Shown here in pieces: positions 30,564-50,570 of a stretch of DNA of 64,000 bases (the stretch's first letter is position 1; each line of letters begins with the position of its first letter). Source of the DNA: Azonexus fungiphilus (GTDB lineage Bacteria > Pseudomonadota > Gammaproteobacteria > Burkholderiales > Rhodocyclaceae). Position numbers and translations under genes: made by a program. The notes under the pieces were generated by a model, which worked only from the letters and a program-made list of their open reading frames with translations, did no database searches and was not told the origin of the DNA. The DNA is taken from contig NZ_RBXP01000011.1 in NCBI RefSeq assembly GCF_003634965.1, positions 1 to 64,000 of the forward strand, read 5' to 3'.

Positions 30564-31052
30564 TCAGGGCGGATTCTTGCCGCTCCAGTCCTTCTTGGGC
30601 GGCAGCCTGACCTGGGCGATCGGTCCGCGCTCGGCGGCGATGACCTTGTCCATCAGTTCGTAGAGTTCCTGGATCAGTTCGGCACCGAAGGCATTCTCGA
30701 TGATCCGGTACTGTTCGACGATCAGCGGGCCGAGTTCGGCGACCAGCCTTTCGGCCTTCGGGGTCATGCGCACGATCACCCGGCGCTGGTCCTCTTCCAT
30801 GCGCGTCCTCGTCACCAGGTGCATGTCTTCCATGCGCGAGAGGACGCCGGTCAGGCTGGGGCTGAGGATCTGGCAGATCTCGCAGATCTCGCGCGGCTCG
30901 AGTTGCTCGTGTTCGCCGATGGCGCGCAGGATGCGCCACTGTTGTTCGGTCAGCCCGAAATGGCCGATGATCGGGCGGAAATGGCAGAGCAGTTCTTCCC
31001 GGGCTCGCAGGAAAAGCTGGGGCAGGTTGCGATAGGCAAGTTTGCGAGTCAT
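30564..31052 (-). CDS. hpaR: MarR-family repressor of homoprotocatechuate degradation, HpaR
   Basis: ATG 31052 gives 162 residues, normal for the family; a TTG at 31088 is less likely. RKLAYRNLPQLFLRAREELLCHFRPIIGHFGLTEQQWRILRAI and the winged-helix segment ILSPSLTGVLSRMEDMHLVTRTRMEEDQRRVIVRMT are those of HpaR. HpaR represses the hpa meta-cleavage operon and is released by the aromatic substrate. It is divergent from hpaA, and a perfect 14-base palindrome lies 51-65 bases upstream of its ATG. Similar sequences occur before dmpK, dctP and the 52.5-kb MFS gene, which defines its likely regulon here. Confidence 0.9.
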   Translation of the reverse strand: MTRKLAYRNLPQLFLRAREELLCHFRPIIGHFGLTEQQWRILRAIGEHEQLEPREICEICQILSPSLTGVLSRMEDMHLVTRTRMEEDQRRVIVRMTPKAERLVAELGPLIVEQYRIIENAFGAELIQELYELMDKVIAAERGPIAQVRLPPKKDWSGKNPP

Positions 31053-31088
31053 GGTCGGTGATCCGGCGTCAGTGTCGAGTAATGTCAA

Positions 31089-32587: not shown

Positions 32588-33580
32588 ATGGCAATCGATT
32601 TGAGGACGGTCAGCATCACCCCGCTGCGCCAGACCTTCGGCCACCTGGCCCGGCGCATGGGCGCGGACAAGCCCGCCTCGCGCTACATGGAAGCGACGAT
32701 GGACCTGCAGCCGGTCGAGAACTACCACTATCGCCCGACCTGGGAGCCGCAGTACGAGATCTTCGACACCCGCCGCACCGCGATCACGATGAAGGACTGG
32801 TACGCGCTCAAGGATCCGCGCCAGTACTACTACGGCGCCTGGACGCTGGCGCGCGGCAAGATGCAGGAAGTCGCCGAGGGCGATTTCGACCTGGTCGACG
32901 AACTCGGCCTGGCCGCCGCCTATCCGGCCGCCGGCAAGGAGCAGGCGCTCAAGGTCTTCCTGCCGCTGCGCCATGTCGCCTGGGCCTCGAACCTGAACAA
33001 GGCTTTCGTGTCGTCCTACGGCTACGGCATCGCCATTTCGCAGGCCACCTGCTACGCCTCGATGGACCAGCTCGGCGTCGCCCAGTACGTCAGCCGCCTC
33101 GGCCTCGCCTGCAACGACCTCGACGCGCTGGCCGCGGCCAAGACGGCCTGGCTGGAAGGCGCCGAGTGGCAGGAGCTGCGCCGCTACGTCGAGGACCTGA
33201 TGGTCGAGAAGGACTGGTTCGAAGTCCTCGTCGCCCAGGACTTCGCCCTCGAGGGCCTGCTCTATCCGCTGATCTACGAGCGCTTCAACGAAAAGCTCAA
33301 CGCCGACTACAGCCCGGTGTTCTCGATGCTGACGCGCTTCCAGCGCGAATGGTTCGGCGAGACCAGCAAGTGGCTGGATGCCGTGCTCAAGGCCACCGCT
33401 GCCGACAACCCGGAAAACAAGGCGCAGCTCGCCGCCTGGATCGGCAAGTGGCGCGAGCGCGCCCTGGTCGCCCTCAAGCCGGTGGCCGTGCTCGCCTTCG
33501 GCGACGAAGCCGAGGCCATCCTCGGCGAGCTGGCCGACAACCTGAATGCCCGCGCCGCCAAGGCCGGCATCGCCCTGTAA
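32588..33580 (+). CDS. dmpL: Diiron phenol-type hydroxylase, oxygenase beta subunit DmpL
   Basis: ATG 32588 is preceded by CAGGAGAC. 330 residues, the usual size. The sequence RYMEATMDLQPVENYHYRPTWEPQYEIFDTRRTAITMKDWYALKDPRQYYYGAW is the conserved N-terminal part of the beta subunit. It has the same ferritin-like helical fold as the catalytic subunit but no iron ligands, and forms the (alpha-beta-gamma)2 oxygenase with DmpN and DmpO. Ten bases separate it from dmpM. Confidence 0.93.
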   Translation: MAIDLRTVSITPLRQTFGHLARRMGADKPASRYMEATMDLQPVENYHYRPTWEPQYEIFDTRRTAITMKDWYALKDPRQYYYGAWTLARGKMQEVAEGDFDLVDELGLAAAYPAAGKEQALKVFLPLRHVAWASNLNKAFVSSYGYGIAISQATCYASMDQLGVAQYVSRLGLACNDLDALAAAKTAWLEGAEWQELRRYVEDLMVEKDWFEVLVAQDFALEGLLYPLIYERFNEKLNADYSPVFSMLTRFQREWFGETSKWLDAVLKATAADNPENKAQLAAWIGKWRERALVALKPVAVLAFGDEAEAILGELADNLNARAAKAGIAL

Positions 33581-33590
33581 AGGAAATCGC

Positions 33591-33860
33591 ATGTCCAACG
33601 CCTTCATCGCCTTCCAGAAGAACGAAGAATCCCGCTGCATCGTCGAAGCCATCCTCGAGGACAACCCGAACGCCATGGTCGACGACCAGCCGTCGATGGT
33701 GAAGATCGACGTGCCCAACCGCCTGGTCATCAAGCGCGAGACCGTCGAGGAAAAGATGGGTCGCAGCTTCGACCTGCAGGAACTGCAGTTGCACCTGATC
33801 ACCATCTCCGGTCACCTCGACGAGACCGACGACGAATTCACCCTGAGCTGGAATTCCTGA
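33591..33860 (+). CDS. dmpM: Diiron phenol-type hydroxylase, regulatory (effector) protein DmpM
   Basis: 89 residues from ATG 33591 (AAAGGAAATC upstream). NAFIAFQKNEESRCIVEAILEDNPNAMVDDQPSMVKIDVPNRLVI is the classic start of the cofactor-free coupling protein family (DmpM, TmoD, MmoB). It binds the oxygenase next to the diiron site and controls substrate access and electron use. It contains one Cys and no cofactor motifs, as expected. Twenty-five bases to dmpN. Confidence 0.93.
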   Translation: MSNAFIAFQKNEESRCIVEAILEDNPNAMVDDQPSMVKIDVPNRLVIKRETVEEKMGRSFDLQELQLHLITISGHLDETDDEFTLSWNS

Positions 33861-33885
33861 TTCCGGCCGCCAAGGAGAGAACACC

Positions 33886-35430
33886 ATGGATATGAAAGTC
33901 GCCAAGAAGCTCGGCCTCAAGGAGCGCTACACCCTGATGACCCGCGATCTCGCGTGGGACACGACCTACCAGCCGATGGACAAGGTTTTCCCGCAGACCG
34001 CCTACGAGGGCATCAAGATCCACGACTGGGACAAGTGGGAAGATCCCTTCCGCCTGACCATGGACGCCTACTGGAAGTACCAGGCCGAGAAGGAGCGCAA
34101 GCTGTACGCCATCCTCGATGGCTTCAACCAGAACAACGGCCACCTGTCGGTCACCGATGCGCGCTACATGAACGTGCTCAAGCTCTTCCTCGGCTCGACG
34201 CCGCCGCTGGAGCTGATGGCCGCGCGCGGCTTCTCGATGATGGGCCGCCACATGCAGGGCGCTGGTCCGCGCGTCGCCTGCCAGATGCAGGCGGTCGACG
34301 AGTACCGTCACTTCCAGACGCAGATCCACTCGATCTCGAACTACAACAAGTACTACAACGGGATGGACGAGTTCGCCCACCAGCAATCCCGCATGTGGTA
34401 CCTGTCGGACGGCAAGTCCTTCTTCGACGACGCGATCACCGCCGGCCCGTTCGAATTCATGGTCGCCATCGGCTTCGCCTTCGAATACGTGCTGACCAAC
34501 ATCCTGTTCGTGCCGTTCATCTCCGGTGCCGCCTACAACGGCGACATGGCGGCGATGACCGTCGGCTTCTCGGCGCAGTCCGACGAAGCGCGTCACATGA
34601 CGCTCGGCCTCGAATGCATCAAGTTCATGCTCGAGCAGGACCCGGACAACCTGCCCATCGTCCAGCGCTGGATCGACAAATGGACTTGGCGCGGCACGCG
34701 CAAGCTCGCTTCGGTCGGCATGATGATGGATTACATGCTGCCCAAGCGCATCATGAGCTTCAAGGAAGCCTGGGAAATGTACGTCGAGGAAAACGGCGGC
34801 GCGCTGTTCAAGGACCTCGCCCGCTACGGCATCACCATTCCGAAGTGCTTCGGCCAGACCATCGAGGAAAAGGAACACGTCACCCACCAGTCGTGGATCG
34901 GTTTCTACATGAAGCCGCAGGCGACGCCCTTCCACACCTGGATCCCGACGCCGGACGAAATGGACTGGCTGTCCGAGAAGTACCCCAACACCTTCGACAA
35001 GTACTACCGTCCGGTGCTCGAGTACCTCGATGCCCAGGAAAAGGCCGGCAACCGCTTCGACAACAAGACCGCGCCGATGAACTGCCAGGTCTGCGTCAGC
35101 ACCATCAAGTTCAACGAACCGGGCGACCCGATGGAGATGTGTTTCCGCGAGTCGACCTATCAGGGAGAGAAATTCCACTTCTGCTCCGATCATTGCCAGG
35201 AAATCTTCGACAACGAGCCGGAGAAGTACATCCAGACCTTCATCTCCTCGCACCAGGTGCTGCAGGGCAACTGCGAGCCGGACGGCACCGACGTCAATGC
35301 CGCCGACTTCAAGCCGGGCCAGAACATGCTCGACTACTGGAAGCTCGACAAGCGCGCGCTTGGCGACTTCAACGGTTCCGAGGACCAGAAGAACTTTGCC
35401 GCCTGGCGCGAACAGGCCACCAAGAACTGA
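33886..35430 (+). CDS. dmpN: Diiron phenol-type hydroxylase, catalytic oxygenase alpha subunit DmpN
   Basis: 514 residues. All six expected iron ligands are present: Glu109 (PPLEL), Glu139 and His142 (VDEYRHF), Glu200 (FAFEYV), Glu234 and His237 (SDEARHM), spaced as in toluene/o-xylene monooxygenase. A YHS-type segment (CQVCVSTIKF ... MCFRES ... FHFCSDHC) closes the protein, as in other phenol hydroxylases. The active site adds one oxygen atom of O2 to a phenolic ring, ortho to the hydroxyl. In this cluster the expected substrate is 4-hydroxyphenylacetate rather than phenol, because all downstream genes handle carboxymethyl-substituted catechols. Substrate choice is inferred from context only. 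Confidence 0.95.
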   Translation: MDMKVAKKLGLKERYTLMTRDLAWDTTYQPMDKVFPQTAYEGIKIHDWDKWEDPFRLTMDAYWKYQAEKERKLYAILDGFNQNNGHLSVTDARYMNVLKLFLGSTPPLELMAARGFSMMGRHMQGAGPRVACQMQAVDEYRHFQTQIHSISNYNKYYNGMDEFAHQQSRMWYLSDGKSFFDDAITAGPFEFMVAIGFAFEYVLTNILFVPFISGAAYNGDMAAMTVGFSAQSDEARHMTLGLECIKFMLEQDPDNLPIVQRWIDKWTWRGTRKLASVGMMMDYMLPKRIMSFKEAWEMYVEENGGALFKDLARYGITIPKCFGQTIEEKEHVTHQSWIGFYMKPQATPFHTWIPTPDEMDWLSEKYPNTFDKYYRPVLEYLDAQEKAGNRFDNKTAPMNCQVCVSTIKFNEPGDPMEMCFRESTYQGEKFHFCSDHCQEIFDNEPEKYIQTFISSHQVLQGNCEPDGTDVNAADFKPGQNMLDYWKLDKRALGDFNGSEDQKNFAAWREQATKN

Positions 35431-35440
35431 GGAGACAGCC

Positions 35441-35803
35441 ATGAGCCACCTGAAAACCCTGGCCCCGTACGAGGTCAAGTCGCGCGACGCGGTCGAGAAC
35501 TACAAGGGCAAGCAGTTGCTGTACATCAACTGGGAACGTCACCGCATGTTCTCGCGTCCCTTCGTGCTGGCGCTGCCGCCGGAAACCCCGTTCTCGGTGA
35601 TCGTCGACCAGTACATGACCGACTGCTTCAGCTACCACCCGGACTGGAAACAGATCGACTGGAACACGGTCGTCTGGCAGAACGGCAACACGCCGTTCAC
35701 GCCGGATCGCAACAAGAGCCTCAAGGAAAACGGCATCGGCCACAAGGACCTGATCCGCTTCCGCACGCCGGGCCTCGATGGCATCGCCGGTACCGGCTAC
35801 TAA
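35441..35803 (+). CDS. dmpO: Diiron phenol-type hydroxylase, oxygenase gamma subunit DmpO
   Basis: 120 residues from ATG 35441 with GGAGAC upstream. LAPYEVKSRDAVENYKGKQLLYINWERHRMFSRPFVLALPPETPFSVIVDQYM and the tail IRFRTPGLDGIAGTGY are conserved in DmpO/PhO. The subunit binds the outside of the alpha-beta core and stabilises the oxygenase. It starts 10 bases after dmpN. A GC-rich hairpin lies in the 63-base gap before dmpP. Confidence 0.93.
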   Translation: MSHLKTLAPYEVKSRDAVENYKGKQLLYINWERHRMFSRPFVLALPPETPFSVIVDQYMTDCFSYHPDWKQIDWNTVVWQNGNTPFTPDRNKSLKENGIGHKDLIRFRTPGLDGIAGTGY

Positions 35804-35816
35804 CAACAAGCAGGGC

Positions 35817-35836
35817 ACCGCGCCGGCAGGCGCGGT
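35817..35836 (+). other. GC-rich hairpin between dmpO and dmpP
   Basis: ACCGCGCC-GGCA-GGCGCGGT is a perfect 8-bp stem with a 4-base loop, 13 bases after dmpO and about 30 before dmpP. No T-tract follows, so it is more likely an mRNA-stability or attenuation hairpin that lowers reductase level relative to the oxygenase than a terminator. Confidence 0.5.
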
Positions 35837-35866
35837 AGCCCGCATTGACCCCGCGGAGACAAGAAC

Positions 35867-36922
35867 ATGAGCTATGAACTGAGCATCGAGCCGCTCGGCC
35901 GGACCATCGAGGTCGAAGACGGCCAGACCATCCTCGACGCCGCGCTGCGCGCCGGCATCTACCTGCCGCATGCCTGCGGCCAGGGCTACTGCGCCACCTG
36001 CAAGGTTTGCATCACCGACGGCGAAGTCGACCACCAGAACTCCTCCAGCTTCGCGCTGATGGACTACGAGCGCGAAGAGGGCAAGGCGCTGGCCTGCTGC
36101 GCCACGCTCGAAGCCGACACCGCGATCGAAGTCGAGATGGAAATCGACGAAGACGCGCGCGACATTCCGGTCAAGGACTTCCCGGGCGTGGTCAGCCGCA
36201 TCGAGAACCTGACGCCGACCATCAAGGGCATCTGGCTCAAGCTCGACGAGGCGCTCGATTTTCAGGCCGGCCAGTACGTCAATTTCAACCTGCCGAACGA
36301 TCTGGGCCACCGCGCCTTTTCGCTCGCCAATTCGCCGTCGACCGGTGACGAGATCGAACTGAACATCCGCATCGTCCCCGGCGGCGTCGGCACGACCTGG
36401 ATCCACAACGAACTCAAGGTCGGCGACCGGATCACCGTCTCCGGCCCCTACGGCCGCTTCTTCGTGCACAAGTCGGCCAAGGTGCCGTCCCTGTTCATGG
36501 CCGGCGGCTCCGGCCTGTCCAGCCCACGTTCGATGATTCTCGATCTGCTGGAAGAGGGCAGCGAACTGCCGATCACGCTGGTCTACGGCGCGCGCAACCA
36601 GGGCGAGCTCTACTACCACCAGGAATTCCTCGACCTGGCCGCGAAACGTCCCAATTTCACCTATGTCCCGGCCCTTAACGACGAGCCGGCCGACAGCGGC
36701 TGGAGCGGCTTCCGCGGCTTCGTCCACGACGCCGCCAAGGCGCATTTCGACAACGACTTCCGCGGCCACAAGGCCTACCTGTGCGGGCCGCCGGTGATGA
36801 TCGAAGCCTGCATCACCACCCTGATGCAGGGCCGCCTGTTCGAGCGCGACATCTACACCGAGAAGTTCTTCTCGGCCGCCGACGCCCAGCAGATCCGCAG
36901 CCCGCTGTTCAAGCGCGTCTGA
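35867..36922 (+). CDS. dmpP: Diiron phenol-type hydroxylase, NADH reductase DmpP
   Basis: 351 residues. The N-terminal plant-type [2Fe-2S] domain has HACGQGYCATCKVC (C-x4-C-x2-C) and the fourth Cys in LACCATL, about residues 41-82. The FAD-binding domain follows (HRAFSLANSP, about 150) and then the NAD domain (FMAGGSGLSSPRSMI, CGPPVMIEACI, about 210-310). It passes electrons from NADH to the diiron site. It is the last gene of the hydroxylase operon; a strong stem-loop follows and the TRAP transporter has its own promoter. Confidence 0.95.
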   Translation: MSYELSIEPLGRTIEVEDGQTILDAALRAGIYLPHACGQGYCATCKVCITDGEVDHQNSSSFALMDYEREEGKALACCATLEADTAIEVEMEIDEDARDIPVKDFPGVVSRIENLTPTIKGIWLKLDEALDFQAGQYVNFNLPNDLGHRAFSLANSPSTGDEIELNIRIVPGGVGTTWIHNELKVGDRITVSGPYGRFFVHKSAKVPSLFMAGGSGLSSPRSMILDLLEEGSELPITLVYGARNQGELYYHQEFLDLAAKRPNFTYVPALNDEPADSGWSGFRGFVHDAAKAHFDNDFRGHKAYLCGPPVMIEACITTLMQGRLFERDIYTEKFFSAADAQQIRSPLFKRV

Positions 36923-37066: not shown

Positions 37067-38089
37067 ATGAACTACCGTCACATTGCTGCCGCTGGCGTGT
37101 TTGCTGCAGTCGCTCTGTCTGCGCAGGCTCAGGAAGTCACCTTCAAGATCGCGCACTTCCTGCCTTCGGCCGCGCCGACCCAGCAGAAGGTGTTGCAACC
37201 CTGGTGCGATGAAATGGGCAAGCTTTCCAACAATCGCATCAAGTGCCAGTTCTATCCGGCCATGCAGCTCGGTGGTACGCCGGCCCAGCTGGCCGACCAG
37301 GTCAAGAACGGCGTGGCCGACGTGGTGTGGACCGGTCCGGGCTATTCCGCCGGTCGTTTCCCGGCGATCGAGGCATTCGAGCTGCCGTTCATGGTCAAGG
37401 ATGCGAGTTCGAGCTCGAAGGCGCTGTGGAAGTACTACCAGCAGCACGCCCAGCAGGAATTCGCCGCCTACAAGGTGCTTGCCTTCCATACCGACGGCGG
37501 CCAGGCCGTGCATACCTCGAAGCGCGAAGTGGCCGGCCTGACCGGTTTCTCGGGTCTCAAGCTGCGCACCTCGACCCGCGTTGGCGCCAAGACCCTGGCC
37601 GCGCTCGGCGGGCAGCCGGTGGCCATGCCGCCGGCCCAGGTGACCGAAGCGATCGCCAAGGGCGTGGTCGATGGTTCGCTTGGTGCCTGGGAGCTGGTCT
37701 ATCCGACCAAGCTGTCCGAGGTCACGAAGTTCCATGCTCAGCCGGCCGAGGGCGTCGCCTACCCGACCGCCACCGTGCTCACCGTGCTGATGAACAAGCA
37801 GAAGTACGAGTCGCTGCCGGCCGATCTCAAGGCGATCGTCGACAAGACCACGGGTGAAGTCATGGTCGGCAAGTTCGGTGCGATGTTCGACGAGGTCGCT
37901 GCCGATACCAAGAAGCGCATCGCCGCCCAGGGCAACAAGATCACCACCTTCAGCGCGACCCAGGTCGAGGCGATGAAGCGTGCCACCGACTCGGTCGATG
38001 AGGAGTGGGCAAAGCAGGTCGGTGAAAAGGGGCTGGACGGCCACAAGCTGATCGCTGCCGCCCGCGAACTCACGGCAACCGGCAAGTAA
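37067..38089 (+). CDS. dctP: TRAP transporter substrate-binding protein DctP
   Basis: 340 residues with a signal peptide (AAAGVFAAVALSAQA, cleavage before QEVTFK). The mature protein follows the DctP fold: VTFKIAHFLPSAAPTQQKVLQPWCDEM, MQLGGTPAQLADQVKNGVADVVW, GLKLRTSTRVGAKTLAALGGQPVAMPPAQVTEAIAKGVVDG; the Arg in LKLRT is the usual carboxylate ligand. It is a periplasmic receptor handing its ligand to DctQM. Location between hydroxylase and hpa genes suggests an aromatic acid such as 4-hydroxyphenylacetate. A paralogue lies at 50571-51608. Confidence 0.93.
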   Translation: MNYRHIAAAGVFAAVALSAQAQEVTFKIAHFLPSAAPTQQKVLQPWCDEMGKLSNNRIKCQFYPAMQLGGTPAQLADQVKNGVADVVWTGPGYSAGRFPAIEAFELPFMVKDASSSSKALWKYYQQHAQQEFAAYKVLAFHTDGGQAVHTSKREVAGLTGFSGLKLRTSTRVGAKTLAALGGQPVAMPPAQVTEAIAKGVVDGSLGAWELVYPTKLSEVTKFHAQPAEGVAYPTATVLTVLMNKQKYESLPADLKAIVDKTTGEVMVGKFGAMFDEVAADTKKRIAAQGNKITTFSATQVEAMKRATDSVDEEWAKQVGEKGLDGHKLIAAARELTATGK

Positions 38090-38116
38090 CGGCATTTCAG
38101 GCAACAGGGGTTAGTC

Positions 38117-38659
38117 ATGCAAGATCCGATGGGCATACCGCATGAACTGGTGGAGCACGACAAGGTCGAGCACTACCTGATCATGGCGGGCAAGGCGATG
38201 GCGATTTCCGGCGGCATGTTGTTCGTCGCCCTGATCGCCATGTCGCTGGTCTCGATCATCGGCCGCAAGCTCGGTTTCGGCTCGGTCAATGGCGATATCG
38301 AACTGATGCAGGCCGGCACGGCTGTCGCAGCGACGGCTTTCCTGCCGTACTGCACGCTGCTCGGCGAGCACATCAAGGTCGACTTCTTCACCGAGAACAT
38401 GCGCGACTCCCTGAAACACCTGATCGACGGCGTCGCCGAGCTGGTGCTCGGTGGCGTCGCCGTTCTGCTGGTCTGGCGGACGACGCTGTCCGCCATCTCG
38501 ATCTACGAGTCGGGGGAGGTGACGACCCTGGTCTCGCTGCCGCTGTGGATTCCGACTGCGCTGCTGATTCCCGGCATCGCGTTGATGGCTGTCTGCGCCT
38601 TTTATCGTGCCTATGCCTCGTTTCATCCGGGCAAGCGCGTTCCGGAGATGAAAGCATGA
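38117..38659 (+). CDS. dctQ: TRAP transporter small membrane subunit DctQ
   Basis: 180 residues with four hydrophobic segments (about 28-50, 70-85, 107-125, 148-167), the DctQ layout. The first helix is followed by IIGRKLGFGSVNGDIELMQAGTAVAATAFLPYCTLLGEHIKVDFF, conserved in the family. It pairs with DctM in the inner membrane for Na+-driven uptake. It starts 27 bases after dctP, and its stop overlaps the dctM start (ATGA at 38656-38659). Confidence 0.92.
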   Translation: MQDPMGIPHELVEHDKVEHYLIMAGKAMAISGGMLFVALIAMSLVSIIGRKLGFGSVNGDIELMQAGTAVAATAFLPYCTLLGEHIKVDFFTENMRDSLKHLIDGVAELVLGGVAVLLVWRTTLSAISIYESGEVTTLVSLPLWIPTALLIPGIALMAVCAFYRAYASFHPGKRVPEMKA

Positions 38660-39984
38660 GTGGTACCACGATCGGCCTGATCGGCTTCGGCGCCTTGCTG
38701 GCGATGCTGGCGGTGCGTGTGCATATTGCAATTGCGATGTTCATCACGGGGGCCGGCATCTATCTGGTGATCAACCAGGGCGAAACCGCGTCCCTGTTGT
38801 ACACCCTGAACAACCTGGTCTATGCCCGGGTTTCGAATTACGACCTGGCGGTGATTCCGCTGTTCATCCTGATGGGCCAGTTTGCCACCCATGGCGGCTT
38901 GTCGAAGGCGCTTTTCCGTGCCGCCAGCACCCTCATCGGGCACTGGCGCGGTGGCCTGGCGATGGCCTCGACGGCAGCCTGTGCGGCCTTCGGCGCGATC
39001 TGCGGTTCCTCGCTGGCGACCGCCGCGACGATGGGGCGGGTGGCCTTGCCCGAACTCAAGGAACACGGCTATTCCGGCAAGCTGTCGACGGCAACGCTGG
39101 CCGCCTCGGGAACCCTCGGCATCATGATTCCGCCGTCGGTGCCGCTGGTCATCTACGCCGTGCTGACCCAGGAGTCGATCGGCAAGCTGTTTGTCGCCGC
39201 CGTTGTCCCGGGCGTCATTGCCGCCCTCGGCTACATGCTGGTCATCGCCCTTGTCGTCCGGCGCGACCCGGCTGCCGGGCCGGCCGGGAAGCGCGCGCCG
39301 TTCGCCGAGATGCTCAAGGCGCAGGTCAACATCATTCCCGTCCTCCTCGTCTTCCTGGTGGTCATCGTCGGCATCTACGGCGGCTGGGCGAATCCGACCG
39401 AAGCGGCGTCGATCGGCGCCGCCGCCTGCGGATTGATCGCGGCGCTGACCGGCGGCATGCGTTTCAAGGACTTCCTGGAGAGCGTCTATGGCACGGCGCA
39501 CGCCACCGGCATGATCTTCATGGTCCTGATCGGTGCCGACCTGCTCAATTCCAGCCTGGCCCTGTCGCAGATGCCGACCGAACTGGCGACCTGGGTGCAG
39601 CAGAGCGGCCTGCCGGCACTGCTGGTGCTGACCGCGATCATCGTCATCTACGTCGTGCTCGGCTGCGTGATGGATTCGCTGGCGATGATCCTGCTGACCA
39701 TCCCGATTTTCTACCCGATGGTGATGGGCCTCGATTTCTTCGGCATGCCGGTTGAGGACAAGTCCATCTGGTTCGGCATTCTCGCGCTGATGGTCGTCGA
39801 AATCGGCCTGGTCACGCCGCCGATGGGCATGAACCTCTACGTGGTGAACAAGCAGGCGAGGGAAGTGCCGATGCGCGAGACCATCGCCGGCGTGCTGCCT
39901 TTCCTGGCCTCCGACTTCATCCGTATCGTCGCCCTCGTGTTTTTCCCTGTCATGTGTCTCGGCCTGGTCCACTGGATCGGCTGA
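38656..39984 (+). CDS. dctM: TRAP transporter large permease DctM
   Basis: ATG 38656 is chosen because it overlaps the dctQ stop; longer frames only read through dctQ. 442 residues and about 12 hydrophobic segments. FGAICGSSLATAATMGRVALPELKEHGYSGKLSTATLAASGTLGIMIPPSVPLVIYAVLTQESIGKLFVAAVVPG is the signature core of DctM, with the helix-hairpin that binds Na+ and substrate. It is the ion-coupled transport channel. A short 15-base gap leads to hpaG1, so uptake and breakdown genes are one operon. Confidence 0.95.
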   Translation: MSGTTIGLIGFGALLAMLAVRVHIAIAMFITGAGIYLVINQGETASLLYTLNNLVYARVSNYDLAVIPLFILMGQFATHGGLSKALFRAASTLIGHWRGGLAMASTAACAAFGAICGSSLATAATMGRVALPELKEHGYSGKLSTATLAASGTLGIMIPPSVPLVIYAVLTQESIGKLFVAAVVPGVIAALGYMLVIALVVRRDPAAGPAGKRAPFAEMLKAQVNIIPVLLVFLVVIVGIYGGWANPTEAASIGAAACGLIAALTGGMRFKDFLESVYGTAHATGMIFMVLIGADLLNSSLALSQMPTELATWVQQSGLPALLVLTAIIVIYVVLGCVMDSLAMILLTIPIFYPMVMGLDFFGMPVEDKSIWFGILALMVVEIGLVTPPMGMNLYVVNKQAREVPMRETIAGVLPFLASDFIRIVALVFFPVMCLGLVHWIG

Positions 39985-39999
39985 GCGGAGTTCGCAACA

Positions 40000-40650
40000 A
40001 TGATCAACGCTTTCCCCCGCGGCACGGTCTATGGCGTCATCCTCAACGACGCCGTCTCCGTGCATCGAATCGGCTCGCTCGAGGAGGCGCCCTACAAGGG
40101 CGCGCCGCAAGCTCCCGTGCTTTATCTCAAGCCGGCGAATACCCGCTGCGCCTGCGCTGCGACGACCACGGTCAACCTGCCGCCAGCGGCAAAAACGGTC
40201 GAGGTCGCCGCGACCGTCGGCCTGGTGATCGGTTGTGCCGCCGCCCGGCTGCAGGCCGACCAGGCACTGGCCCACGTTGCCGGCCTGGTGCTCGCCGCCG
40301 ACCTCAGCCTGCCGCACGCCAGCTACTACCGGCCGGCGATCCGCGAGAAATGCTTCGACGGCTCGCTGCCGCTGTCCGAGGTCAAGCCGCTGGTCGACAT
40401 CGCCGGCCTGATCCTGGTTACCGAGATCGACGGCGCCGTCGTTGACCGGCGTCCGCTCGACGACCTGATCCGGCCGCCGGCGCAGTTGCTGGCCGACGTC
40501 TCGGAATGGATGACCCTGAACGCCGGCGACGTGCTGCTCGTCGGCGTGCGCTACCAGGCGCCCCAGGCCGGGATCGGCAGTACCGTCCGCATCAGCGCCG
40601 AAGGCCTGGGCAGCCTGCATTTCACGATTGCCGAAGGAGTCGCCGCATGA
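40000..40650 (+). CDS. hpaG1: Homoprotocatechuate pathway decarboxylase/isomerase, N-terminal half (HpaG1)
   Basis: 216 residues, fumarylacetoacetate-hydrolase fold. FPRGTVYGVILNDAVSV, PVLYLKPANTRCACAATTTVN and PLSEVKPLVDIAGLILVTEIDGAVVDRR correspond to the first half of the fused enterobacterial HpaG. Together with HpaG2 it decarboxylates 5-oxo-pent-3-ene-1,2,5-tricarboxylate and isomerises the product to 2-oxo-hept-4-ene-1,7-dioate. In this organism the two halves are separate genes overlapping by 4 bases, instead of one fused protein. The metal-site Glu residues seem less complete in this half than in HpaG2. Confidence 0.85.
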   Translation: MINAFPRGTVYGVILNDAVSVHRIGSLEEAPYKGAPQAPVLYLKPANTRCACAATTTVNLPPAAKTVEVAATVGLVIGCAAARLQADQALAHVAGLVLAADLSLPHASYYRPAIREKCFDGSLPLSEVKPLVDIAGLILVTEIDGAVVDRRPLDDLIRPPAQLLADVSEWMTLNAGDVLLVGVRYQAPQAGIGSTVRISAEGLGSLHFTIAEGVAA

Positions 40651-41408
40651 AGCACGGTCGTATCAGTTACAACGGCGCCGTCCATCAGGTCACCGAAGAC
40701 AGCGGCCGTGTCCGTCTTGCTGACGGTCGACTGCTCCAGGAGGGCGATTTCCAGTGGCTGCCGCCGGTCGAAGTCGGCACCGTCTTCGCGCTCGGCCTGA
40801 ATTACGCCGACCACGCCAGGGAACTTGCCTTCAAGGCGCCGGAAGTGCCGCTCGTCTTTCTCAAGGGGCCGAACACCATCACCGGCCACAACGCCAAGAC
40901 GCGCCGCCCGGCCGACGCCACCTACATGCACTACGAGTGCGAGCTGGCCGTGGTCATCGGCAAGACCGGCAAGAACGTCGCCAAGGCCGACGCCATGGAC
41001 ATCGTCGCCGGCTACACCGTGGCCAACGACTACGCCATCCGCGACTACCTCGAGAACTATTACCGGCCTAACCTGCGCGTCAAGAACCGCGATGCCTGCA
41101 CGCCGCTCGGCCCGTGGCTGGTCGATGCCGCCGATCTGCCGAATCCGGGCGCGCTCAAGCTGAGCACCCGCGTCAACGGCAAGACGACGCAGGAAGGCAC
41201 GACCGCCGACATGATCTTCGACATCCCGACCCTGATCGAATATCTGTCGTCCTTCATGACCCTGAATCCGGGCGACGTGATCCTGACCGGCACGCCGGAA
41301 GGCCTGGCCGACGTCAAGCCGGGCGATGTCATCGAAACCGAAGTCGAAAACATCTGCTGTCTGGTCAACACCATCGTCGACGACCAGACCTGGTTCGCCC
41401 CCGTTTAA
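40647..41408 (+). CDS. hpaG2: Homoprotocatechuate pathway decarboxylase/isomerase, C-terminal half (HpaG2)
   Basis: 253 residues from ATG 40647, overlapping the hpaG1 stop. FALGLNYADHARELAFKAPEVPLVFLKGPNTITG, MHYECELAVVIGKTGKNV (metal-binding Glu residues), GYTVANDYAIRDYLENYYRPN and MTLNPGDVILTGTPEGLADVKPGD are the full FAH-family motif series of HpaG2. It acts after HpaE on 5-oxo-pent-3-ene-1,2,5-tricarboxylate. Sixteen bases separate it from hpaE. Confidence 0.93.
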   Translation: MKHGRISYNGAVHQVTEDSGRVRLADGRLLQEGDFQWLPPVEVGTVFALGLNYADHARELAFKAPEVPLVFLKGPNTITGHNAKTRRPADATYMHYECELAVVIGKTGKNVAKADAMDIVAGYTVANDYAIRDYLENYYRPNLRVKNRDACTPLGPWLVDAADLPNPGALKLSTRVNGKTTQEGTTADMIFDIPTLIEYLSSFMTLNPGDVILTGTPEGLADVKPGDVIETEVENICCLVNTIVDDQTWFAPV

Positions 41409-41424: not shown

Positions 41425-42879
41425 ATGATCAAGCACATCATCAACGGCCAGAAGGTCGACAGCAAGGAGACCTTCGAAACGGTCAATCCGGCAACCGGCG
41501 AAGTGATCGACACCGTCGCCAGCGGCGGCGAAGCCGAGGTCAATGCCGCCGTTGCGGCAGCCAAGGCGGCCTTCCCGGGCTGGGCCGCGACGCCGGTCAA
41601 GGAACGCGCCCGCCTGGTGCGCAAGCTGGGCGAGCTGATCGCCGCCAATGTCGAGCCGATTGCCGACATGGAAACCGCCGATACCGGCCAGGTCACCTAT
41701 CAGACCAAGAAGGTGCTGGTGCCGCGTGCCTCCGACAACTTCAACTACTTCGCCGAGCTGATCCAGCACATGCACGGCGAAACCTACGATTCCGACACCG
41801 GCCACCTCAACTACACGCTGTGGCAGCCGGTCGGCGTCTGCGCGCTGATCTCGCCGTGGAACGTGCCGTTCATGACCGCGACCTGGAAGACTGCGCCCTG
41901 CCTGGCCTTCGGCAACACCGCCGTGCTCAAGATGTCCGAGCTGTCGCCGCTGACCGCCAACCGCCTCGGCGAACTGGCGCTCGAAGCCGGCATCCCGCCG
42001 GGCGTCTTCAACGTCGTCCATGGTTTCGGCAACACCGCCGGCGAGCCGCTGGTCGCCCACCCGGACGTGCGTTCGATCTCCTTCACCGGCTCGACCGCGA
42101 CCGGCAACCGCATCGTCAAGTCGGCCGGCCTGAAGAAGTTCTCGATGGAGCTGGGCGGCAAGTCGCCCTTCATCATCTTCGACGACGCCGACTACGAACG
42201 CGCCCTCGACGCCGCCATCTTCATGATCTTCTCGAATAATGGGGAACGGTGCACTGCCGGTTCGCGGATCATCGTCCAGGCCGGCATCTACGACAAGTTC
42301 GTCGCTGATTTCGCCGCCCGCGCCGCCAGGATCAAGGTCGGCGACCCGACCGACATGAGCACCATCATTGGTCCGATGATCTCCAGGGGGCATCAGGAAA
42401 AGGTCAATTACTACATCGAACTGGGCAAGCAGGAAGGCGCCGAAGTCGTCTTCGGCGGCGGTACGCCGGTGGTCGACGACAAGTTCAGGAACGGCTTCTG
42501 GGTCCAGCCGACGGTGTTCGCCGGCGTCGACAACAAGATGCGCATCGCCCAGGAAGAAATCTTCGGGCCGGTGCCTTGCATCATCCGCTTCAAGACCGAA
42601 GAAGAGGCGATCCAGATCGCCAACGACACCATCTACGGCCTCTCGTCCTACCTGTGGACCAACAACACCGGTCGCGCCATCCGTCTGGCCAAAGCCATCG
42701 AGTCCGGCATGACCTTCGTCAACAGCCAGAACGTCCGCGACCTGCGCCAGCCCTTCGGCGGTTCCAAAGCCTCCGGCACCGGCCGCGAAGGCAACCACTA
42801 CAGCTACGAAGTGTTCTGCGAAGCCAAGAACATCGCCGTCTCCTACGGCAGCCATCACATTCCGCGTTGGGGAGTCTAA
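41425..42879 (+). CDS. hpaE: 5-carboxymethyl-2-hydroxymuconate semialdehyde dehydrogenase
   Basis: ATG 41425 gives 484 residues, the usual HpaE length. Aldehyde dehydrogenase motifs are in place: ALISPWNVPFMTATWK, SFTGSTATGN, MELGGKSPFIIFDDADYERA (catalytic Glu) and NNGERCTAGSR (catalytic Cys). The KxxIKHIINGQ-like N-terminus and the end NIAVSYGSHHIPRWGV are characteristic of HpaE. It oxidises the ring-cleavage aldehyde with NAD+. It lies between hpaG2 and hpaD1, two bases from the latter. Confidence 0.95.
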   Translation: MIKHIINGQKVDSKETFETVNPATGEVIDTVASGGEAEVNAAVAAAKAAFPGWAATPVKERARLVRKLGELIAANVEPIADMETADTGQVTYQTKKVLVPRASDNFNYFAELIQHMHGETYDSDTGHLNYTLWQPVGVCALISPWNVPFMTATWKTAPCLAFGNTAVLKMSELSPLTANRLGELALEAGIPPGVFNVVHGFGNTAGEPLVAHPDVRSISFTGSTATGNRIVKSAGLKKFSMELGGKSPFIIFDDADYERALDAAIFMIFSNNGERCTAGSRIIVQAGIYDKFVADFAARAARIKVGDPTDMSTIIGPMISRGHQEKVNYYIELGKQEGAEVVFGGGTPVVDDKFRNGFWVQPTVFAGVDNKMRIAQEEIFGPVPCIIRFKTEEEAIQIANDTIYGLSSYLWTNNTGRAIRLAKAIESGMTFVNSQNVRDLRQPFGGSKASGTGREGNHYSYEVFCEAKNIAVSYGSHHIPRWGV

Positions 42880-42881
42880 TC

Positions 42882-43730
42882 ATGGGCAAACTCGCACTCG
42901 CCGCCAAGATCACGCACGTGCCGTCAATGTACCTGTCGGAACTCGACGGGCCGCACAAGGGCTGCCGCCAGGCCGCCATCGACGGGCACAAGGAGATCGC
43001 CCGTCGCATGCGTGAACTGAACGTCGACACCATCGTCGTCTTCGACACGCACTGGCTGGTCAATTCCGGCTACCACATCAACTGTGCGCCGAGCTGGGAG
43101 GGCATCTACACCTCCAACGAGCTGCCGCACTTCATCAAGAACATGCCCTTTGCCTATGAAGGCAGCCCGGCGCTCGGCCATGCCATCGCCGCGACGGCGA
43201 CCGCCGCCGGCGTGCATACCCGCGCCCACGACGCGACCAGCCTGGCGCTCGAGTACGGCACCCTGGTGCCGATGCGCTACATGAACGAGGACAAGAAGTT
43301 CAAGGTGGTGTCCATCTCGGCGCTGTGTACGGTGCATGACCTGGCCGATTCCATCGAACTGGGCCGCGCCGTGCGCAAGGCAATCGAGGAAAAATTCGAC
43401 GGCACCGTCGCCGTGCTTGCCTCCGGCTCGCTGTCGCACCGCTTCGCCCAGAACGGCACCGCCGACCAGTTCCTGCACAAGGTCTGGGATCCATTCCTGG
43501 AAAGCGTCGACCACCACGTCGTCGAACTGTGGAAGAACGGCGACTGGAAGACCTTCTGCGGCATGTTGCCGGAGTACGCGGTCAAGTGCCACGGCGAAGG
43601 CATGATGCACGACACCGCGATGCTGCTCGGCGTGCTCGGCGCCGAGGACTACCAGGGCAAGGCCGAAGTGGTCACGCCGTATTTCGGTTCGTCCGGCACC
43701 GGCCAGATCAACGTCGTATTCCCCGTCTAA
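42882..43730 (+). CDS. hpaD: 3,4-dihydroxyphenylacetate 2,3-dioxygenase, copy 1
   Basis: 282 residues from ATG 42882; longer frames read through hpaE. The N-terminus GKLALAAKITHVPSMYLSEL and TIVVFDTHWLVNSGYHINC are nearly those I recall for E. coli HpaD. This type III extradiol enzyme (LigB fold) needs His residues in THVPS, DTHWL and LPHF, plus the SGSLSHRF histidine; all are present. It opens the homoprotocatechuate ring to 5-carboxymethyl-2-hydroxymuconate semialdehyde. A diverged second copy follows after 64 bases. This copy matches the classical protein best at its N-terminus and less in the 215-240 region. Confidence 0.93.
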   Translation: MGKLALAAKITHVPSMYLSELDGPHKGCRQAAIDGHKEIARRMRELNVDTIVVFDTHWLVNSGYHINCAPSWEGIYTSNELPHFIKNMPFAYEGSPALGHAIAATATAAGVHTRAHDATSLALEYGTLVPMRYMNEDKKFKVVSISALCTVHDLADSIELGRAVRKAIEEKFDGTVAVLASGSLSHRFAQNGTADQFLHKVWDPFLESVDHHVVELWKNGDWKTFCGMLPEYAVKCHGEGMMHDTAMLLGVLGAEDYQGKAEVVTPYFGSSGTGQINVVFPV

Positions 43731-43794
43731 GAGCGAAAAGCCACGGTCACCCCCCGACAGAGCCTGAAATTCCAACATCAAGGGAGACAAACTC

Positions 43795-44643
43795 ATGGGT
43801 GAAATCGTCATGGCCATCAAGTGCACGCACGTGCCGTCGATGCTGATTTCCGAACAGCCGGGGCCGGCCCACGGCTGCCGCCAGGCCGCCATCGATGCCG
43901 AGCGCGAGCTGGGACGTCGCGCGCTCGAGCTGGGGGTCGATACCTTCGTCGTGTTCGACACGCACTGGCTGGTGAACGCCGGCTATCACATCAACAACAA
44001 CGCGGTGCACAAGGGCAACTACACCAGCCACGAGTTCCCGCACTTCATCCAGGACCTGCCTTACGAGTTCCCGGGCAACCCGGAACTGGGCGACCTGATC
44101 GCCGAGGAAGCCACGGCCATGGGCGTCAAGACGCGCGCGCACCGGGTGCCGTCGCTCGACCTCGAATACGGCACCATCCTGCCGATGCGCTACATGAACC
44201 CGGAAGGCAGGATCAAGGTCGTCTCGATCGCCGGCTGGAGCACCTTCGGCTCGCTGGAAGAGTCGCGCATCCTCGGCGAAGCGCTGGCCAAGGCCGTTGC
44301 CCGCAGCAACAGCAAGGTCGCCATCGTCGCTTCCGGCTCGATGTCGCACCAGATCTGGGAAAACCGCCTGGTCGAGGAGGGGTTCAACACGATCAGCCGC
44401 GAGTTCAACAAGCAGGTCGACCTGCGCGCCCTGCAACTCTGGGAAGAAGGCCAGTGGGCCACCTTCCTGCGCATGCTGCCCGAATACGCCGAGTACTGCA
44501 CCGGCGAAGGCAAGATGCACGACACCGCCATGCTGTTCGGCGCGCTGGGCTGGGACAAGTACGAAGGCAAGGCCGAAATCGTCTGCCCGTATTTCGAAAG
44601 CTCGGGTACCGGCCAGGTCGTGGTCAGCCTGCCGGTTGCCTGA
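43795..44643 (+). CDS. 3,4-dihydroxyphenylacetate 2,3-dioxygenase paralogue, copy 2
   Basis: 282 residues, exactly the length of copy 1, with AGGGAGAC upstream. The shared frame (TKCTHVPSM-like start, FDTHWLVNAGYHIN, FPHFIQDLPYEF, LEYGTILPMRYMN, ASGSMSHQIWENR, GKMHDTAMLFGALGWDKYEGKAE) keeps all catalytic histidines, so both copies should be active. In the region around residue 200 (FNTISREFNKQVDLRALQLW) it looks closer to classical HpaD than copy 1 does, whereas its N-terminus is more diverged. It may form a mixed complex with copy 1 or take another substituted catechol. Confidence 0.88.
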   Translation: MGEIVMAIKCTHVPSMLISEQPGPAHGCRQAAIDAERELGRRALELGVDTFVVFDTHWLVNAGYHINNNAVHKGNYTSHEFPHFIQDLPYEFPGNPELGDLIAEEATAMGVKTRAHRVPSLDLEYGTILPMRYMNPEGRIKVVSIAGWSTFGSLEESRILGEALAKAVARSNSKVAIVASGSMSHQIWENRLVEEGFNTISREFNKQVDLRALQLWEEGQWATFLRMLPEYAEYCTGEGKMHDTAMLFGALGWDKYEGKAEIVCPYFESSGTGQVVVSLPVA

Positions 44644-44662: not shown

Positions 44663-45055
44663 ATGCCCCACCTGATCTTTGAAATCACCGCCAACCTGGA
44701 TACGCCGGAAAGCGACGTGCCGAGCCTGTTGATGAAGGCCAACCAGGTGCTGATCGACCAGGGCGGGGTGTTCCCGACCGGCGGTATCCGCTCCCGCGCC
44801 ATCTGGCTGCGCGACTACTGTGTCGCCGATGGCGTTGCCGACGACGCTTTCGTCCACGTCACGCTGAAGATCGGCGCCGGTCGCTCGGAAGACGCCAAGA
44901 AGAAGGCCGGCGACGCGCTGTTCGCGATGATCTGCGACCACTTCGCCGCCGTTTACGCCAGACGCACGCTGGCGCTGTCGATGGAAATCGTCGAGTTCAG
45001 CGAGTCCGGCACGTGGAAGCAGAACAACATCCACGCCCGCTACAAGAAAACCTAA
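44663..45055 (+). CDS. hpaF: 5-carboxymethyl-2-hydroxymuconate delta-isomerase
   Basis: 130 residues from ATG 44663 with GAGGAGCAAG upstream. PHLIFEITANLDTP starts with the catalytic Pro1 (after Met removal) of the tautomerase superfamily; FPTGGIRSRAIWLRDYCVADG and FVHVTLKIGAGRS are HpaF/CHMI motifs with the conserved Arg pair. It isomerises 5-carboxymethyl-2-hydroxymuconate to the oxo form used by HpaG. Twenty-one bases to hpaH. Confidence 0.93.
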   Translation: MPHLIFEITANLDTPESDVPSLLMKANQVLIDQGGVFPTGGIRSRAIWLRDYCVADGVADDAFVHVTLKIGAGRSEDAKKKAGDALFAMICDHFAAVYARRTLALSMEIVEFSESGTWKQNNIHARYKKT

Positions 45056-45076: not shown

Positions 45077-45880
45077 ATGCTCAGCCAGGACATCATCGAA
45101 GCCGCCGCCCGCCGTCTGCACGAGGCCGAAAAGACCCGCCGCCCGGTGCGCCAGATTTCGCTCGATCACCCGGAGATCACCATTCCCGATGCCTATGCGA
45201 TCCAGAAGGCCTGGGTCGGGATGAAGCTGGCCGAGGGCCAGAAGGTCGTCGGCCACAAGATCGGCCTGACTTCGCGCGCCATGCAGATGTCGTCGCAGAT
45301 CGACGAACCCGATTTCGGCACCTTGCTCGACGAGATGGTGTACAAGGATGCAGCCGAGATTCCGGTCGAGCGCTTCATCGACCCGATGGTCGAGGTCGAG
45401 CTTGCCTTCATCCTCAAGGATCGCCTGGAAGGCGACCAGGTCAGCATCTTCGACGTGCTGTCGGCGACCGACTACGTGACGCCGGCGATCGAGATCATCG
45501 ATGCCCGCTGCCACCGCATCGATCCGGAAACGAAGCGGCCGCGCAAGGTCATGGACACCATCTCGGACAATGCCGCCAACGTCGGCATCATCCTCGGCGG
45601 GCGCCCGGTCAAGCCGCTCGATTTCGACCTGCGCTGGGTGTCGGCCTTGCTCTACCGCAACGGCATCATCGAGGAAACCGGCGTTGCCGCTGGCGTGCTC
45701 AACCACCCGGCCAACGGCATTTCCTGGCTGGCGAAGAAGTTCGCGCCGCACGGCGTGGCGCTCGAACCGGGGCAGATCATCCTGGCTGGCTCGTTCACCC
45801 GTCCGGTCAAGGTCGCCAAGGGCGACACCTTCCATGCCGATTATGGCCAGCTGGGCAACATCAGCTGCCGTTTTGTCTGA
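45077..45880 (+). CDS. hpaH: 2-oxo-hept-4-ene-1,7-dioate hydratase
   Basis: 267 residues, same as the E. coli enzyme. [58 protein letters not shown] and [16 protein letters not shown] carry the Mg-binding Glu residues of the FAH-like hydratase family. It adds water to give 4-hydroxy-2-oxo-heptane-1,7-dioate. It is followed 16 bases later by hpaI, the aldolase for that product. Confidence 0.94.
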
Positions 45881-45896: not shown

Positions 45897-46694
45897 GTGA
45901 ACATGCCCCGCAACACCTTCAAGCGCGCGCTCGCCGCCGGCGACACGCAGATCGGCCTGTTCCTCGGCCTGGCCAACGCCTACACCGCCGAGATCGTCGC
46001 CACCACCGGCTTCGACTGGCTGCTGATCGACGGCGAGCACGGTCCGAACGACCTGCGTTCGATCATCGACCAGCTGCAGGCGCTGGCGCCGTACCCGGTC
46101 AAGCCGGTCGTGCGCACCGTCGACCACGACGTCGCCCGCATCAAGCAGCTGCTCGACGGCGGCGCCCAGACGCTGATGGTGCCGATGGTCGAAACCGCCG
46201 CCCAGGCCGAGCAGCTGGTGCGTGCCATGCGCTATCCGCCGCACGGCATCCGCGGTGTCGGTACGGCGATGGCCCGCGCCGCGCGCTGGAACGGCGTCGA
46301 AGGTTACTTTGCGCACGCCGACGAGGAAATGTGCCTGATCGTGCAGATTGAATCGACCACCGGCCTGGCCGGCCTCGACGACATCCTCAAGGTCGAGGGC
46401 GTCGATGCGGTGTTCATCGGCCCGTCCGATCTCGCCGCCTCGATGGGCCATCTCGGCAATCCGGGCCATGCCGAGGTCAAGGCAGCGGTTAACGCCGCAA
46501 TTGGCAGGATTTCCGCCGCCGGCAAGGCGGCCGGCGTGTTCTCGGCCGACCCGGCGGCCGCCGAAGCCTACCGCCAGATCGGCGCCAGCTTCCTGCTGGT
46601 CGGCGTCGATGCCTTGCTGCTGCGCAATTCCGCGGTCGCCCTGGCCGACAAATTCAAGCAGGCGGAATCCGGCAAGACCGGCGCCGCCTACTAA
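45897..46694 (+). CDS. hpaI: 4-hydroxy-2-oxo-heptane-1,7-dioate aldolase
   Basis: 265 residues from GTG 45897, chosen because GGAGG sits 8 bases before it; the ATG at 45903 would be 14 bases away. Class II (metal) aldolase of the HpcH/HpaI family: GLFLGLANAYTAEIVATTGFDWLLIDGEHGPND (catalytic His), MVPMVETAAQAEQLV, IVQIESTTGLAGLDDILKVEGVDAVFIGPSDLAASMG (metal Glu/Asp). It splits the substrate to pyruvate and succinate semialdehyde; the next gene oxidises the latter. Confidence 0.95.
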   Translation: MNMPRNTFKRALAAGDTQIGLFLGLANAYTAEIVATTGFDWLLIDGEHGPNDLRSIIDQLQALAPYPVKPVVRTVDHDVARIKQLLDGGAQTLMVPMVETAAQAEQLVRAMRYPPHGIRGVGTAMARAARWNGVEGYFAHADEEMCLIVQIESTTGLAGLDDILKVEGVDAVFIGPSDLAASMGHLGNPGHAEVKAAVNAAIGRISAAGKAAGVFSADPAAAEAYRQIGASFLLVGVDALLLRNSAVALADKFKQAESGKTGAAY

Positions 46695-46715: not shown

Positions 46716-48170
<1,455 letters not shown>

Positions 48171-50494: not shown

Positions 50495-50570
50495 AGCGGG
50501 GGAGGGGGCTCCCTAAGATTTGCCCGTGGGCTTTCGGCCCATCGTGCAAACAATACAACAGGAGACCCCG

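Follow-up and report, generated by a model that had tools for sequence, protein, structure and literature searches.

The hpa locus

The window, that is, the whole stretch of 64,000 nucleotides of DNA that was analysed, is placed by named relatives in Dechloromonas/Azonexus, and its host is a soil and water bacterium. It carries a cluster of genes in the order hpaG1, hpaG2, hpaE, hpaD copy 1, hpaD copy 2, hpaF, hpaH, hpaI and a gabD-like gene, within which two hpaD genes lie in tandem. These genes, and a regulator upstream of them, are as follows.

30564..31088, reverse strand: hpaR regulator (TIGR02337, above the cut-off)
40000..40650, forward strand: hpaG1-like gene, decarboxylase/isomerase N-terminal type (191.3 bits, below the cut-off of 228.65)
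40647..41408, forward strand: hpaG2, decarboxylase/isomerase C-terminal type (curated profile match)
41425..42879, forward strand: hpaE (TIGR02299, 722.5 bits)
42882..43730, forward strand: hpaD copy 1, LigB-type 3,4-dihydroxyphenylacetate (homoprotocatechuate) 2,3-dioxygenase, 282 aa, of the E. coli/Acinetobacter-side lineage, with His152 kept
43731..43794, forward strand: intergenic gap of 64 bases between the two copies, containing the ribosome-binding-like stretch GGGAG
43795..44643, forward strand: hpaD copy 2, LigB-type HpaD of a second lineage, 282 aa, with all catalytic residues kept; remodelled positions are Ser149, Phe151 and Gly152 in a loop and Val276 (position 277 of copy 1)
44663..45055, forward strand: hpaF, CHM Delta-isomerase (130.2 bits, below the cut-off of 215)
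45077..45880, forward strand: hpaH, 2-oxo-hept-4-ene-1,7-dioate hydratase (curated profile match)
45903..46694, forward strand: hpaI, 4-hydroxy-2-oxoheptanedioate aldolase (361.8 bits, slightly below the cut-off of 368.8)
46716..48170, forward strand: gabD-like succinate-semialdehyde dehydrogenase (TIGR01780, above the cut-off)

The curated scores of hpaG1, hpaF and hpaI fall below their cut-offs, yet these models are the best matches of the three genes. Copy 1 begins 2 bases after the end of hpaE, and the distance from copy 2 to hpaF is 19 bases. Within the 64-base gap between the copies no match to a promoter or terminator was found. The genome has one additional LigB match, which is on the same contig and outside the pair. 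Genes of a TRAP transporter (matching a DctP-type binding protein and a DctM-type permease) lie upstream of the hpa genes at 37067-39984 of the window, and a second, related TRAP binding protein lies downstream of them at 50520-51608.

Both copies are HpaD

Both proteins match the NCBIfam model TIGR02298 (HpaD_Fe), copy 1 with 482.7 bits and copy 2 with 456.3 bits against a cut-off of 315.95, and both also match Pfam LigB; they are 54% identical to each other. Both stand in the context of an hpa meta-cleavage operon, with hpaG1, G2, E, F, H and I surrounding them. The residues named for P. aeruginosa DHPAO in the available text of PMC5291488 are His12, His57, Glu239, Tyr125 and His186. These five catalytic or second-sphere residues (copy 1 numbering) occur in both copies and in 77 of 77 copy-1-type and 83 of 83 copy-2-type distinct sequences; for this and the other residue counts, rows cut by contig ends, containing stops or identical to another row were removed beforehand. 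The AlphaFold model of copy 2 has a mean pLDDT of 94.5, and its best PDB match is A. baumannii DHPAO (8iq8; TM 0.98). Hence, by every sequence and model test applied, both proteins are HpaD, and the earlier note's description of two tandem 282-residue extradiol enzymes with all catalytic histidines is borne out by the open reading frames, by the TIGR02298 and LigB matches and by the residue set. Three other residues, Cys149, His152 and Asn277, are widely conserved though outside the formal TIGR02298 definition; copy 1 has all of them and copy 2 none.

The same note had remarked that each copy resembles classical HpaD best in a different part, and comparison with E. coli HpaD bears this out: over residues 1-90, copy 1 is identical at 70 of 90 positions versus 53 of 90 for copy 2, and over residues 195-240, copy 1 is identical at 20 of 46 versus 27 of 46 for copy 2. 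(Overall, 187 of 281 positions match in copy 1 and 157 of 281 in copy 2.) A chimeric origin is not needed to account for this, since a 'KVWDP'-like loop after the catalytic His is common to 28 of the 77 copy-1-type sequences (by pattern); it is found in 0 of the 83 copy-2-type sequences. Lineage is the likely reason for the regional pattern.

Two separate lineages

The phylogeny that the earlier note had proposed was run with other pairs included (99 rows in the main tree, thinned at 93% identity) and places the copies in two separate lineages: the copy 1 group and the copy 2 group, each comprising Dechloromonas, Zoogloea and genome G469, form clades with support of 100/99. A tree constrained to unite the two groups is worse by 162 log-likelihood units (AU p 1.3e-42), by which a recent tandem duplication within the genus is rejected; the copies are not each other's closest relatives. 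On the copy 1 side of the tree are E. coli HpaD, Erwinia HpaD and 8iq8; on the copy 2 side are Ruegeria HpaD, Vibrio HpaD and one of two Oceanospirillaceae sets. The identity of copy 2 to the majority of its relatives in Oceanospirillaceae and Vibrionaceae is 60-66%, versus 54% to the copy 1 next to it. (The copy-2-type set consists of the best 80 of 160 relatives with copy 2 as the query, and the copy 2 side is sampled more densely.) The tree indicates that the copies are old, separate lineages and not the result of recent copying; the copy 2 lineage was probably brought beside copy 1 by gene transfer.

A single clean split of all HpaD into two groups is not what the tree gives: the core groups are firm, but support for the exact branch between the sides falls to 57/2 when Roseateles and Shinella proteins are labelled copy-1-type (in two quick trees without these labels it is 98 and 100). 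One Shinella plasmid (L185, 5001-9281) carries a LigB-type HpaD and a second protein annotated hpaD, near a pyridoxal-dependent decarboxylase gene; this second protein forms an extreme branch of the tree, with 10 changes per column, and may be an unrelated type of extradiol enzyme.

Retention of the pair and selection

Within the genus, HpaD was found in 27 of 76 genomes, and all 27 of these yield two matches, one of which is partial in four genomes (G239, G247, G254 and G259). Wider searches, whose genome draws overlap, found HpaD in 14 of 199 genomes of the family (9 of these with a single HpaD), 32 of 399 of the order (23 single), 4 of 369 of the class (1 single) and 22 of 398 of the phylum (19 single); outside the genus, most HpaD-bearing genomes carry one HpaD. 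Adjacent pairs with one gene of each lineage do occur there, namely in a Zoogloea MAG (L089), in G469 (L178), in two Leeiaceae genomes (L117 and L171, which are one genome, and L170) and in G065 (L168). The Leeiaceae pairs, which are found in two of the three genomes of that family, have the reversed gene order, as does the G065 pair, which is split by a contig end. In Oceanospirillaceae, 16 loci have one HpaD of each lineage about 3-7 kb apart.

Genes of either type also occur alone: a copy-1-type gene is the sole HpaD in nine genomes of the same family, and a copy-2-type gene is the sole HpaD in G1118 and G1302. In the hpa clusters of Vibrio, the sole HpaD gene within about 20 kb is of the copy-2 type, and these single-gene clusters suggest that the copy-2-type lineage can probably use homoprotocatechuate.

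For the Dechloromonas/Zoogloea/G469 group, dN/dS is 0.142 for copy 1 (136 pairs among 17 sequences of 846 bases, copies of other lengths being excluded) and 0.074 for copy 2 (150 sampled pairs among 27 sequences). Purifying selection acts on both copies, with greater strength on copy 2, and neither is decaying.

Remodelled positions in copy 2

When 24 orthologues of copy 2 and 27 of copy 1 are set against the other HpaD sampled (54 sequences of the copy-1 type and 60 of the copy-2 type), six fixed changes specific to copy 2 emerge (G35A, L128I, V129L, C149S, H152G and N277V in copy 1 numbering), at positions that are 95-100% conserved in those other HpaD. Five positions (N79H, L81F, F188I, C226L and L249F) separate the lineages as such.

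Residue 152 is His in 77 of 77 copy-1-type sequences. Among copy-2-type sequences, all 26 with a copy-1-type gene as immediate neighbour have Gly there (Phe151 in 24, Trp151 in 2); these are related sequences that represent two lineages, the Dechloromonas group and Leeiaceae. His is found in all 16 whose partner lies at some distance in the locus and in 40 of the 41 for which no partner was seen in it. The exception, L092, has Ala152 and no partner on its 5.1 kb contig. Overall, His152 is kept in 56 of 57 non-adjacent copy-2-type sequences, and pairwise alignment agrees with these counts. The G065 copy, which is partial and stands outside the count of 26, has Phe151-Ser152. In the tree, loss of His152 falls in two lineages within the copy 2 side: the Dechloromonas group with L092, and Leeiaceae with G065.

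Eight non-adjacent, copy-2-scoring sequences collected later are divided: L182, L195, L199 and L201 have His152, and L197, L200, L202 and L205 lack it. A strict link between pairing and loss of His152 is weakened by the latter four, as it is by L092. The neighbour of L202 is an hpaE-like gene, and the surroundings of L205 include hpaE-, hpaG- and hpaH-like genes; no hpa neighbours of L197 and L200 were found within 18 kb.

Two HpaD-like genes at 8567-9412 of L208 and 8659-9504 of L209 exceed the family cut-off and lack His152, and a search of 18 kb found no hpa neighbour for them; they are possibly of another substrate class.

In the model of copy 2, residues 150-153 form a loop connecting a strand (141-149) to a helix (154-169). 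In the aminophenol dioxygenase of Micromonospora (M. rosaria), a loop, N184-Y188, lies near the active site, shields it and alters access to it, according to the available text of PMC10470539. When this enzyme is aligned to copy 2, its residues 183-186 are an insertion just before residue 148 and its residues 187-190 pair with 148-151. Given this alignment and the strand and helix limits of the model, residues 149-152 of copy 2 probably lie in or beside an active-site loop.

The diiron hydroxylase and its co-occurrence with the pair

Between hpaR and the hpa cluster the window encodes a second enzyme of relevance.

32588..36922, forward strand: phenol-hydroxylase-type multicomponent diiron monooxygenase, five subunit genes
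32588-33580, forward strand: beta subunit
33591-33860, forward strand: effector
33886-35430, forward strand: alpha subunit
35441-35803, forward strand: DmpO-like protein
35867-36922, forward strand: reductase

The best solved-structure matches of alpha and beta are phenol hydroxylase PhN and PhL. Of the 27 genus genomes with the pair, 26 have an alpha that is at least 92% identical (the other, G239, is 85% complete); it also occurs in three genus genomes without HpaD, one of them with a partial copy; the Fisher p for co-occurrence of alpha and the pair within the genus is 6e-16, a value that ignores the relatedness of the genomes. HpaB_N exceeds its cut-off in only two of the 27 genus genomes with the pair, so that, most simply, the diiron enzyme would do the job of HpaBC in Dechloromonas.

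Outside the genus, the roughly 10 kb flanking the pairs of Leeiaceae and G469 yielded no hydroxylase, but it is present elsewhere in all three genomes: whole-genome search found alpha in G469 (92%) and in the Leeiaceae genomes G329 (90%) and G372 (88%), each with all five diiron subunit genes together, at distances from the pair of about 36-43 kb in the two Leeiaceae and 2.6 Mb in G469. In the Zoogloea MAG, alpha (90%) adjoins the pair. G065 has partial relatives of alpha only (77 and 63%). Of the nine same-family genomes with a single copy-1-type gene, G184 has alpha (87%) beside its hpa genes; in six others the relatives of alpha do not exceed 69%, and the remaining two lack any. Taken together, 29 of the 31 whole genomes that have an HpaD pair contain alpha (at least 88%), versus 1 of 9 single-HpaD genomes (G184, 87%), a comparison that is limited on the single-HpaD side to the same family and whose counts are not independent, the genomes being related. 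The recurrence of the hydroxylase with pairs of two lineages is the best hint that it may also supply what copy 2 cleaves. Coupling between a second HpaD and the hydroxylase is not strict: in G184 (94% complete) the hydroxylase occurs together with a single HpaD, which shows that one HpaD can suffice with it, and G065 has only the distant partial relatives.

Several observations on neighbouring genes may be added. The alpha subunits of Leeiaceae and G469 are 88-92% identical to that of the window, against about 64-66% (Leeiaceae) and 84% (G469) for copy 2; the diiron hydroxylase was probably exchanged between families. Pfam scans of the neighbours in other loci did not find the ring hydroxylase of canonical clusters. 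In a Dechloromonas relative (G062), about 5 kb past the diiron hydroxylase on the hpa cluster side, an aromatic amine dehydrogenase heavy chain is encoded (L216, 8282-9439; 311.8 bits versus 148 for methylamine dehydrogenase). Pfam matches to aromatic amine dehydrogenase (E <= 1.5e-43) occur in 18 of the 27 pair genomes and in two others, and none was found in the window's genome; hence the pair does not need the dehydrogenase, and its assignment to an aromatic amine pathway was set aside.

Interpretation

It is an evenly balanced judgement that copy 1 is an ordinary homoprotocatechuate dioxygenase and that copy 2 is its remodelled but active partner, acting on a related catechol. A changed substrate is, in our best reading, ranked first among the explanations, ahead of oxygen-related or kinetic isoenzymes, then mixed oligomers and finally redundancy. 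According to this preferred explanation, one hpa operon would encode two separate, catalytically competent extradiol dioxygenases, of which copy 1 would be the ordinary homoprotocatechuate 2,3-dioxygenase, and copy 2 a member of an old second HpaD lineage, placed beside copy 1 probably via gene transfer. Copy 2 would have been changed at V129L, C149S, V151F, H152G and N277V, its iron ligands and second-sphere residues being left unchanged. We infer that the loop sets side-chain recognition and that the substrate differs: copy 2 would most likely open a related catechol with a side chain suited to a pocket that is wider and less polar, that catechol perhaps being made by the accompanying phenol-hydroxylase-type enzyme, and its product would pass to the same downstream Hpa enzymes.

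P. aeruginosa DHPAO, in the available text of PMC5291488, acts on 3,4-dihydroxyphenylpropionate at 2.6% and on 3,4-dihydroxybenzoate at 0.002% of its rate; such selectivity suggests that there is room for a second enzyme beside the canonical one. The downstream hpa genes are single copies belonging to the homoprotocatechuate pathway, which would limit how different a second substrate can be. The earlier note had suggested that one copy may accept another catechol, made by the diiron hydroxylase. This is supported indirectly, by the fixed loop changes, the retained catalytic set, purifying selection and the presence of the hydroxylase in 29 of 31 pair genomes; against it, G184 has the hydroxylase with a single HpaD. 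The finding of the hydroxylase in three genomes by whole-genome search slightly raises the probability that the substrate has changed.

Somewhat more tentatively, a little short of an even call, copy 2 may represent a new substrate class of LigB-type HpaD, in which His152 would have been lost at least twice independently (to Gly or Ser, with an aromatic residue at 151) beside a canonical HpaD, and in which two catechols would feed one lower pathway; the same diiron enzyme would supply the second catechol in Dechloromonas and Leeiaceae and would replace HpaBC in Dechloromonas.

The explanation that survives best after a changed substrate, though it is unlikely, is that both copies cleave homoprotocatechuate as isoenzymes, for example for high and low oxygen, with the loop tuning the affinity for oxygen or substrate. 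Dechloromonas are facultative denitrifiers, the two copies share one operon and the same downstream enzymes, and the lone copy-2-type genes of the Vibrio hpa clusters come from a lineage that can probably use homoprotocatechuate. Yet in those loci His152 is retained by the copy-2-type enzymes and Asn277 by nearly all of them, whereas the copy-2-type enzymes of the Dechloromonas group have neither.

Less probable still is a mixed tetramer of copy 1 and copy 2, one subunit shaping or regulating the other, although the genes are adjacent, of equal length and in one operon, two HpaD matches are present in every HpaD-bearing genus genome, and aminophenol dioxygenases, which share the fold, are heteromeric. 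(For P. aeruginosa DHPAO, the available text of PMC5291488 gives subunits of 30 kDa and a native mass of 112 kDa.) Against such a tetramer, each type occurs alone, copy-1-type in the nine same-family genomes and copy-2-type in G1118 and G1302. Moreover, both copies keep full catalytic sets, unlike the AmnAB alpha subunit, which has no full set; a heteromer of the AmnAB type would have one subunit without an iron site, and here all ligands are in both copies.

That copy 2 provides only redundancy or gene dosage, without a role of its own, is very improbable despite the shared curated family model and fold, for it is not a recent duplicate in the tree, is present in 27 of 27 genomes with a dN/dS below that of copy 1, and has fixed changes common to 24 distinct orthologues.

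Relation to known systems

Both copies resemble the LigB-type HpaD/HpcB/DHPAO enzymes of E. coli C, P. aeruginosa and A. baumannii (8iq8) in fold, length, metal ligands, Tyr125, His186 and position in the hpa operon; the E. coli C operon, however, has one hpaD, and copy 2 lacks the His152, Cys149 and Asn277 that copy 1, E. coli HpaD and 8iq8 all have. 2-Aminophenol 1,6-dioxygenase, AmnA/AmnB (3vsg, 7txy, 8ihg), likewise has the same fold and two related subunits, but its iron site is in the beta subunit (available text of PMC10470539), whereas both copies here keep all ligands.

Among systems with two HpaD, the Oceanospirillaceae pairs (such as L093, L104 and L122) also have one of each lineage per genome; there, however, the genes are non-adjacent and the copy-2-type gene keeps His152 (16 of 16). 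P. putida CSV86 has two hpaD genes in its genome, but these are on different contigs, and so non-adjacent, in the available text of PMC3901652. The pairs of Leeiaceae (L117/L171 and L170) and of G065 (L168) are alike in having one gene per lineage and in having lost His152 (to Gly, Gly and Ser), and the Leeiaceae genomes G329 and G372 share the same diiron hydroxylase; they differ in that the copy-2-type gene comes first and position 277 keeps Asn. No report of this tandem hpaD pair was found in the literature searched, which covered few subscription papers, and the paper that links Dechloromonas with homoprotocatechuate there names the genus only in a figure legend.

Significance

If the two copies are oxygen isoenzymes, they would exemplify a bacterium that maintains a pair of ring-cleavage enzymes suited to different oxygen levels. 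Should copy 2 turn out to have a new substrate, residues 149-152 and 277 would be a short list of positions setting side-chain choice in LigB-type catechol dioxygenases; annotation would also have to be corrected, inasmuch as one database name would cover two jobs and TIGR02298 would need splitting. In that case, too, the co-occurrence of the hydroxylase with pairs of two lineages would point to a catabolic module that is undescribed in the literature searched.
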